From: Petrosia ficiformis
Taxonomy: Eukaryota; Porifera; Demospongiae; Haplosclerida; Petrosiidae
NCBI GenBank assembly: GCA_947044365.1
Contig: OX345636.1
Coordinates: 39,474,191-39,538,190, forward strand
Direction: 5' to 3'
DNA length: 64,000 nt
The translations under genes and the position numbers were made by a program. Shown piece after piece: positions 54,101-61,030 of the stretch. Below the pieces are notes generated by a model. The model worked only from the letters and a program-made list of their open reading frames with translations. It was not told the DNA's origin and did no database searches. Positions within the stretch are counted from its first letter, which is position 1, and each line of letters starts with the position of its first letter.

Positions 54101-57100
54101 GATTAATTATTGTGGTTGTGAATCAATTCCAGTTTCAAAAGTCTATGTAGTGAAGCGAGTTCCTAGTATATTATGTATAGATACAATAGTGTAGTTATTG
54201 CAAGGTGATAGTGAACGTCTGTTATGTTTCAAAACCTCTTTTCTCATCTATGGTCGGATATATGTATGCATCATCAGCAAATTTTGCCTCTTGCAAATTC
54301 AGTTAATAATTTATATAATTATGTAATACTATGTTTATTTGATTAACAACATGCTGTTTTAGTCATTGGGTTATCAGTGAGATATATTGATAAGCAAATA
54401 AGTACACAATTCAGTTATTACTTATTTAGTCATGCATCATATTTCAATACATAAACAACTGGCTGCAAGAACTGATTTGAACAGAATGCAAGCTGAATAG
54501 TTTCATACATACATGTATGTATATTTATAGTATGTGTGTATATGAAAAGTTCAGCTTGCACAGTTGTTTAGTTCTTTTACATTTTATCATAAACTCTGGC
54601 AAACATCATAATTTAGTTGTGTTAGTTAGTTGTGTAGCCAAGATGAATTCTACACTTATTATGATTATGATCTTAACCAATAAATGGAAACAACAGATTT
54701 CTTGTTCAACTACCAATTAATACATTATCACATGTTAATTATTTCCTCTTTCATCTACATAGACAAAACACTGTACTTGTTTCAGCAAAAGACATTGTCA
54801 TTACTAGCATAGAACAGACAGACGATGGACTACAGGTGACTTTCTTTGTAAGAGGAGGGAGTGGAGACACAAGTGGAGTGATACCTGCAGAAGCTGTTGT
54901 AGAAGCTGTACAGGTAAATACAACTATAGCACAAAATTTTATAATTAGGAAAAAGATATACCTAGCTGTGTTTGAAGATAATTTTGATCAAATGCTTGTT
55001 TTTAAAATGCTCACTATTCCACTGTTTTATAAAATACACCATTGAAATATGGTATTTAGGAAGACTAGTCATTTATGCTTCTTTCGCAGTGTCTTCCTAT
55101 ATACCAAAAAAGGGGGTTGTGTTTAAAACAAACAAACAATCTTCCTAGAATTAGTTGATTTTCAGACAATCATAAGTAGTGTATAGAAAGGTTGAGGGAT
55201 CTGATAAAATAAATAGAGATCTGCCAACATACTATAGTGTGATATGCAATAATACAGACATAAGCCCCGGGAAACAGTTGCCATGTTAGCATGCATACAT
55301 ATAATTATATTATATTATATATATATATATATATATATGTGTTATATATATCATGTTTCAGAGGTCTATATGCGTTATATAACCTGCCACGAGGTAAGAT
55401 ATCACCCGAGGGCGTAGCCCGAGGGTGATATCATCTGAGTTGGCAGGTTTATATAACGCATATAGACAGATGAAACATGTTATATCTGATATATTTTAGA
55501 ATGAGATTCATACCTTGGATTGTCCTGCAAGAGATTGTCATTACGTCTGTCAGAAATCGCCGTCGAGTTTCACAAGGTTGATATTTTAAAATATCAACTT
55601 ATTTTGAGGTTTATATGAGAAATATAAACTTACACGCCCTATAGAAATGTATGGGCTATGAATCTCATTATGAGATATATATATACAGTAGAAAACAAAA
55701 AAAAGTTCACGTTCTGTCTTCGTACTACGACCGTAGTACGGAACGATAAACGGTGAAAACGCTGTATCAACGCCGTCTAAACGCTACGTTGAGATTGCGT
55801 TGCGTTTTGGAAAAACGGAACAATGAAAATCCGTTTATACGGAACGATGAAAATTCGTTTATACGGAACGGTCAACGCCCTCTTTACGGTATCCACTTGA
55901 CAGCACGTGGAGGAAGAACGAGTCAACGAGAGAGAAATCAGAGAATGGCAATGAGAGCAGCGTTGAAAGAGGCTCAGAAAAGTTAGTTATTAAGATTTTT
56001 TTAAATAAATTAGTGAATATTCAGATTATTCACAAATCTTTTTAATAGAGCAAATGATCCTTGTATATTTTGAAGAAGATAACTCGGTGAGTATTGTGAA
56101 AGAAACGGCACTAGTGGAGGAGTTGAGTACTCTAAGTAAAGGGTCAAAATGCTCAGTTAAAGAGAGATCAAAAGTATATAGTGGCTTGGTTGTTGATATA
56201 GGTAAGTCATATTATATTATCTTTGTTATAATTGTAACAGAACAGAATGAACTGGTACAGGTTCGCTTATACTTGTTTTTGCCTAATACATCACTCACAG
56301 TGTCAATGGAGAAAAACTAAGCAAACATAATTATACAGTTAGATATTAAGTCTGTAGGCTACAATGGAGTGGGCATAAACATTGTAAGTGAACCTGTAAT
56401 ATCTCAAAGGGACATTTTAACTTGAGAGTGATGTATAAAGGAAGTAGATAACATAAAAATTGTTTTCCAGGTGATGTGAAATATTTAGAAAAACTTGAAG
56501 AAAGCTTTTTAGTAGACAACCATGAATTTCTAGTAGGAGGAGAAAATAAAGAGAATGAGGGAAAAGGTAATAATAATTATAACACTTGTAATTAATTCAC
56601 TTATTATTACTGTTAGAAAATGCTGTAAAAACTGCATCAAGAAAGAGGAGCAAGCTTGTTAAAAACAAAACACAAAAACGGCCTTGTATAGTAAAAGAAA
56701 AACCTAAACTTGCTAGTGAGTTTTTAGGGTTTTTAGTTCTCACTAAGATTTGGAATTATCATTTTTTCTGTTTTTACAGATAAACATAAGCCAAAAGGAT
56801 CGATAATTACAGTTACAGACCATAGCGACAAATGTGAAAATAATGATGAGCAACCTAATACTCCAGATATTACTCCAGCCATTACACCAAGACTTAATGA
56901 ATTACTAATTATGGAAGATGAAAATGTTAATGAAGTACGTATTGCAGATGAAAGTGAACAAGATGCTATATCAGAATCAGGTGAGATTGGTATGTGTAAT
57001 ATGTAAAATGTGTAAAATGCAGTGTTGTTTTAGGGAACTAAAACTAAATTTTAGTTAGCCCATTTCACCTAACTAAATCTTGTTAGTGATTGAACTAAAA

Positions 57101-60100: not shown

Positions 60101-61030
60101 ACCGTCGAAACGTAGTTTATACGCTAAAATTAGCATCGTCGTACAAACGTCGTTTACACTCTACGCAGCTAAAACGGTACGGGTTAGCTACGGAACGGAG
60201 CGTTTCGTACTACGGTCGTAGACGAAGACAGAACGTGAACTTTTTTTTGTTTTCTACTGTATATATATATATATATATATAATTACATATATGTATTTGC
60301 TATACATATATGTATTTGCTATACCACCCCTGCGAGGTATATCTCACATTTATACTCAATGAGCTCGAGGGCAAGGTGAGTATAAATGTGATATGTATTG
60401 AGGTGTGGTATAATTTATTTATACCATGATGGAACCACACTTGTGCGCATGCTCAGCAACTTTGCACACATGTTATAGATCTCTACTTGTTATGTCGAGC
60501 GAGAAAGAAGTGATGATCGTAACCTGAAAGATTGGTTTGAAGACTACAATAGCAGAAACCCAAGCAATACTTGTCGTAGTGAAATTTTAACCCTTAGAGG
60601 CTGATGTCACATATATGTGACAGTTCACCCCTACGTGGTTCGGAGTGTGTTCCTAGCATTACAAAGCACTACAAAGGCTTGTAATTGGTATCGGGCACAA
60701 GCCCATGAAAATAGCTAAAAAAAGTTGATGGTTTTTCGGCCACCCTTTGGCCTAAATAACAAGCACAGGGGGAATTTTTGAAAGGGGGTCTTCCGTGTTG
60801 GAAAAGGAGCCAAGTTTGGGGAACAGAAAGTGAACGGTGGCCAAAATATGTGCAATAGATGCGCTAGTGTTGGAAATGGGAAGAATTTTGAAAAACAAGC
60901 TCTAGCACTCTAAGGGTTAATTAAACTCTAAGGAAGTTATCAACTTACATGGAGGTTTATTTGTGCAATATCAACTTACACGCCCAATTGAAAATACATG
61001 GGCTATGAATTTCATTATGATATATATATA

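Follow-up and report, generated by a model that had tools for sequence, protein, structure and literature searches.

Among autonomous transposons, Tc1/mariner elements are regarded as the simplest, a transposase alone being sufficient, and typical members of the Tc1 family carry nothing else. A second element-encoded protein is found in PIF/Harbinger (a transposase plus a Myb-like protein), CACTA (TnpA and TnpD) and MuDR (mudrA and mudrB), several of these proteins binding subterminal motifs, and the VANC protein of Arabidopsis VANDAL elements is an anti-silencing factor that counters methylation on the element's own DNA. Here we describe a two-gene Tc1-type transposon at positions 55686-60259 of a 64,000-nucleotide stretch of the sponge Petrosia ficiformis (contig OX345636.1, positions 39,474,191 to 39,538,190; hereafter the window), in which a minus-strand transposase gene converges on a plus-strand gene for a predicted BEN-domain protein. 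The transposases and partner folds of PIF/Harbinger, CACTA and MuDR are unrelated to those of the window element, and VANC, from plant Mutator-like elements, is unrelated to the window BEN protein.

Multi-gene Tc1/mariner elements are known from ciliates, so a second gene as such does not make a new kind of element (PMC4724952, as far as the available part goes). The TBE elements of Oxytricha, which encode a 42-kDa transposase together with a 22-kDa open reading frame and a 57-kDa zinc-finger/kinase open reading frame, resemble the window element in being Tc1/mariner transposons whose additional genes evolve under purifying selection and include one gene that is inverted with respect to the rest. 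They differ in being ciliate elements with other extra proteins, and the available part of the source mentions no BEN or Tudor domain (PMC4724952). A transposon of the Lambdina fiscellaria nucleopolyhedrovirus likewise has a transposase beside a second gene with a chromatin-type domain inside inverted repeats, but the repeats are of 118 nt, the target identity is 12 nt rather than TA, and the domain is FLYWCH rather than BEN (PMC4447894, available part). No described DNA transposon with a BEN gene, a Tc1-BEN family included, appears among the full-text literature matches listed, a scope that lies outside subscription papers, preprints and repeat databases. The window element has the following features.

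55684..55685, TA at the left junction, inside a TA run
55686..55745, plus strand, left terminal inverted repeat, first bases CAGTAG
55686..55935, CpG-dense left end (26 CpG/250 bp), reaching up to the BEN start codon
55945..55981, plus strand, BEN exon 1, coding (predicted)
56049..56201, plus strand, BEN exon 2, predicted Tudor-like domain at 56051-56200
56471..56566, plus strand, BEN exon 3
56617..56715, plus strand, BEN exon 4, basic region
56780..56980, plus strand, BEN exon 5
57820..58556, plus strand, BEN exon 6, stop included; a long helix taken as coiled coil (about 57825-57929), then a proline-rich stretch and the predicted BEN domain (about 58236-58553)
58904..59372, minus strand, transposase exon 2, remaining catalytic core and stop, with Pfam DDE_3 and Sleeping Beauty core matches
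59492..60021, minus strand, transposase exon 1, start codon at 60021
60010..60259, CpG-dense right end (24 CpG/250 bp), extending slightly beyond the transposase start codon (60021)
60201..60259, minus strand, right terminal inverted repeat
60260..60261, TA at the right junction, inside a TA run

The sequence-only reading of this locus had proposed near-identical terminal inverted repeats (TIRs) with a TA duplication, an intact DD34E transposase and a convergent six-exon gene for a BEN protein with a coiled coil and a basic region, and each of these proposals held up, the last as far as predicted folds can say. The outermost 38 bases of the TIRs are the same in inverted orientation and about 59 bp can be aligned, inverted ends being a Tc1/mariner trait; TA lies on both sides in 17/17 short derivatives with paired ends, and the window copy sits in TA runs. 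Each gene starts about 240-260 bp inward from one element end. The transposase frame is open over two exons (332 aa), with 34 residues between D235 and E270, and matches Pfam DDE_3 (1.2e-16) and the Sleeping Beauty core (9e-30). Its N-terminus, where the Tc1 family has a paired helix-turn-helix, scores below the cut-offs of HTH_Tnp_Tc3_2 (22.6 bits; cut-off 31.5) and HTH_32 (20.4; cut-off 33.7), and three BEN-paired relatives barely exceed the former (31.8-31.9). Among the best 120 of 2583 matches, the relatives that carry a species name are from a sponge, Amphimedon queenslandica. The DD34E core, CAGT ends and TA target are those of Tc1 and Sleeping Beauty; unlike these, the window clade carries a second, constrained gene. 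A sequence of about 22 bp, CCAGGGGTTTAA(A)GCCACCAAC, is present in inverted orientation at 58883-58904 and 59952-59973, at the transposase stop and near its start.

The BEN gene has six predicted exons with regular splice sites and an open frame of 440 codons, and its product is predicted to consist of a Tudor-like domain, a basic region, a coiled coil and a BEN domain. The protein scores 18.0-19.4 bits against Pfam PF10523 (gathering score 23.2), a transposase-linked relative reaches 38.8 bits, and at E 0.1 the model matches 30/56 BEN homologues. The predicted structure of the element protein includes a BEN fold similar to those of BANP and BEND3, with 11-18% identity over the aligned BEN parts, and the exon 2 product is predicted to adopt a Tudor-like fold whose nearest neighbors are the Tudor domains of ARID4B and KDM4. 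By eye, two further loci (L084 and L085) have similar short first BEN exons. A full-length BEN homologue is present in another sponge, Ephydatia muelleri, and a profile search for more relatives returned 18 proteins, none of them named. A search of PDB sequences with the BEN profile found no BEN structure, just coiled-coil and other chance matches, and of 22 pattern matches in viral contigs and five in bacterial or archaeal contigs, none was confirmed as a BEN family member. We also looked for co-occurrence of the two genes in other sponges through contigs of equal length; one pair only was found (P0040 and P0139, both 2768), which proves nothing.

The sequence-only reading would have been judged a one-off capture or nested insertion if other copies held the transposase alone and the BEN gene were an ordinary host gene elsewhere; instead, pairing recurs at dozens of loci and among very diverged transposases, which supports that reading. 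Searches covered the host assembly (191 Mb, 29 contigs), with transposase loci built from 150 of 158 matches for one exon and 150 of 159 for the other. The last BEN exon gave 85 matches, merged to 77 BEN loci; a transposase match is found no more than 5 kb away from 57 of them, and in 55 of these the arrangement is convergent. The Pfam BEN model gave 14 hits above its cut-off (8/14 convergent with a transposase relative), and a distant BEN relative used as query gave 38 hits. Together these searches define 116 BEN-like loci, fragments counted, of which 79 have a relative of the window transposase at a distance of 5 kb or less, whereas 1000 random placements averaged 2.3 and never exceeded 9; 67 of the 79 pairs are convergent, nine tandem and three divergent. 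The most diverged transposases with a convergent BEN partner are 34% identical in exon 1. The Pfam Tc3_2 model supplied a control set of 15 Tc1 loci from outside the clade, and none of these has a BEN-like locus within 5 kb.

From the transposase side, a BEN-like locus lies within 5 kb of 43 of 62 long loci, defined as merged spans of at least 850 bp, a few of which may join two neighboring copies. This number rose from 35 to 42 with the Pfam search and to 43 with the distant BEN query, so the first BEN absences were in part a limit of detection; absence throughout means that these searches detected no gene near the locus. Five BEN-less loci (L031, L034, L037, L040 and L042) have no match in their 1.5-kb flanks to 56 homologues and one distant BEN, and these queries likewise gave no match at L032, where the BEN gene lies beyond the stretch examined. 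Tandem BEN-like matches at C13:3328882, C15:1814596, C2:3517309, C17:2680206, C5:6582437 and C1:53857116 share the orientation of a distant transposase relative that lies upstream of them, and perhaps represent a deeper subclade with a different layout.

Both genes appear to have been retained by selection over the longer term. In one-ratio codon models, omega is 0.079 for 20 transposase sequences and 0.097 for 19 sequences of the BEN domain, so that constraint across subfamilies holds for the one gene as for the other; testing against omega = 1, with kappa fixed at 2.0, gives likelihood differences of 1254 and 300 log units and is no clean test. Protein-changing distances of transposase and BEN are correlated over 18 elements (r 0.74; 0/5000 shuffles), and the two trees have most groupings in common. 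When copies of the window element's own family that are almost identical are compared, the ratios are 0.41-0.93 for BEN and 0.27-1.23 for the transposase, and in four BEN pairs that involve the 25882 group a handful of changes takes the ratio above 1, so that these ratios show weak recent constraint at most. The clear exception to congruence is at C1:35840805-35848804 (L032, L037, L058 and L060), where the BEN gene is almost the same as that of the 25882 group and the adjoining transposases are from another group; a module swap and nested copies are candidate readings.

The ends of the element are unusually rich in CpG, a feature that, together with the Tudor-like domain, goes beyond the sequence-only reading. 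CpG is depleted both in the window (observed/expected 0.31) and in the element interior (0.30), and background sequence averages 1.9 CpG per 250 bp and nowhere has more than 15 (1179 overlapping windows); the density is confined to the outer approximately 250 bp on each side, stretches that serve at the same time as the 5' leaders of the two genes. In five other elements, six ends have 13-25 CpG, three of them not above the background maximum of 15. Per 220 bp, all 17 short derivatives have 14-23 CpG at the left end and 14-24 at the right, with 3.4-9.0 in the middle. One BEN-less Tc1 has 2-6 CpG per 250 bp at an end that is not mapped, and in which the inverted repeat was not found. A palindromic CG motif was considered as the BEN binding site and set aside, standing out in just 3/10 ends.

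Human BANP and BEND3 are BEN proteins that bind unmethylated CpG motifs, and BANP, which has a coiled coil, needs oligomerisation, for example through the coiled coil, to reject methylated DNA (PMC11472053, available part). They are host proteins, unlike the window BEN protein, although the predicted fold is similar. From this binding, the predicted coiled coil and BEN domain, and the CpG-dense ends, we infer that the element protein may bind its own ends. It would oligomerise through the coiled coil and, by analogy with BANP, bind terminal CpG-containing motifs when these are unmethylated, and the Tudor-like domain may contact nucleosomes. The ends would then be open and paired, with the transposase acting on them and both genes transcribed from them; derivatives of 0.6-0.7 kb, too short for either gene, retain the ends and would have been moved in trans. 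We put at close to even the proposition that this is a two-gene Tc1 transposon, both frames open, whose predicted Tudor-like/coiled-coil/BEN protein binds the CpG-dense ends and either assists the transposase or keeps the ends active. The partnership of the two proteins is an inferred one, which co-evolution and the CpG-dense ends support and do not prove. That dozens of close and remote relatives in this genome retain the gene pair suggests that the second protein helps the element to move or to evade silencing.

A more far-reaching version is possible and put forward tentatively: that an ancient animal Tc1 clade encodes its own CpG-island-binding chromatin factor, the Tudor-BEN protein reading the element's CpG-island-like ends, kept open and paired in a CpG-depleted genome. 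If true, we know of no earlier case in animals of a cut-and-paste element that encodes a protein to read the CpG-dense ends of that same element. A long-lived clade with a chromatin-type partner would show that the transposase-only rule is not universal in Tc1/mariner, and would offer a compact system (one end of about 59 bp, about 250 bp of CpG-dense DNA and two proteins) for how an animal transposon handles CpG methylation; transposons may also have spread BEN genes around early animal genomes.

Several observations weigh against such an end-binding partner. First, 37 of the 116 BEN-like loci are unpaired, and at 19 of the 62 long transposase loci no BEN gene was detected. Second, once an end has been inserted, its CpGs are lost more quickly than its remaining C/G sites: in the 17 derivatives, transitions at CpG number 47/774 (left), 10/204 (middle) and 16/749 (right), and at other C/G sites 20/930, 22/1360 and 10/765. 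Third, CpG decay at the left end is about equal to that in the middle. Because CpGs of inserted copies decay faster, it is probably selection that maintains the dense ends of the moving lineage, and not a complete shielding of each copy.

The dual nature of the ends, which double as 5' leaders of both genes, would also suit a BEN protein that represses the promoters of its own element, or damps them, and so holds the transposase at a level the host tolerates, and NACC1 is described as a transcriptional coregulator (PMC11472053, available part). We consider this unlikely: self-limitation should be easily lost, yet the BEN gene has been kept across deep divergence, and gene-less derivatives too retain the CpG-dense ends. 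A role in target choice, with the Tudor-like domain reading a histone mark and the BEN part bridging transposase and target chromatin, is if anything less probable; it would fit the predicted resemblance to the ARID4B and KDM4 Tudor domains, but the CpG density lies within the element and not its flanks, and the insertion sites are TA dinucleotides, as with any Tc1.

That the BEN gene is an anciently captured host gene, a passenger without a role in transposon life, seems to us distinctly improbable. It could account for the long transposase loci at which no BEN gene was detected, for the weak constraint between recent copies, and for L042, which lost BEN together with part of the transposase. 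A passenger would decay, though, and the BEN omega across subfamilies, the recurring N-terminal exon and domain, and the largely congruent trees all speak against it. A chance arrangement, in which one element inserted next to another in nested fashion or two ends came to enclose a host gene, might explain the mixed groups at C1:35.84 Mb but is scarcely credible when pairing so exceeds the shuffle maximum and recurs in the same convergent order, and as a general explanation nested insertion or one-off capture is ruled out by this recurrence.

The end of the window element was scored at 40 places among 139 candidates; more may exist. The sequence-only reading had asked how many copies hold both genes between the same TIRs. 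Both genes lie within one end pair in the window, at L081 (223-4706; transposase 83% identical), and at about C1:8300444-8304143 and about C1:27109337-27114505; in two C15 copies the end pair encloses both genes, BEN as a short remnant. For most other pairs one end was read. Pairing thus recurs overall, but copies with the window element's end are mostly short and have neither gene (17/19 other copies, 611-701 bp, TA on both sides), and at L042 two ends enclose a truncated transposase only (280 of 332 residues aligned). The short derivatives and L042 look like deletion products. All ten ends listed open with CAGTA; next comes a run rich in A and then a CG-rich part.

The surroundings of the window element have features of their own. 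A diverged direct repeat (84-90%) flanks it at 55592-55685 and 60938-61032, and the right copy continues as an unbroken TA-rich run, resembling an unoccupied site. To the left, a repeat read roughly by eye as AAAC.GTTGCCATG.TAGCATGC and followed by TA-rich sequence lies at 55267-55345 and again at about 225-300 of L087; it sits left of the window element and, on C14, has the same position relative to an unrelated Tc1, which would fit insertion of the two near TA runs of one repeat family. Also beside the element, 55337-55494 contains two 46-nt arms that are 83% complementary, possibly a small inverted-repeat element.
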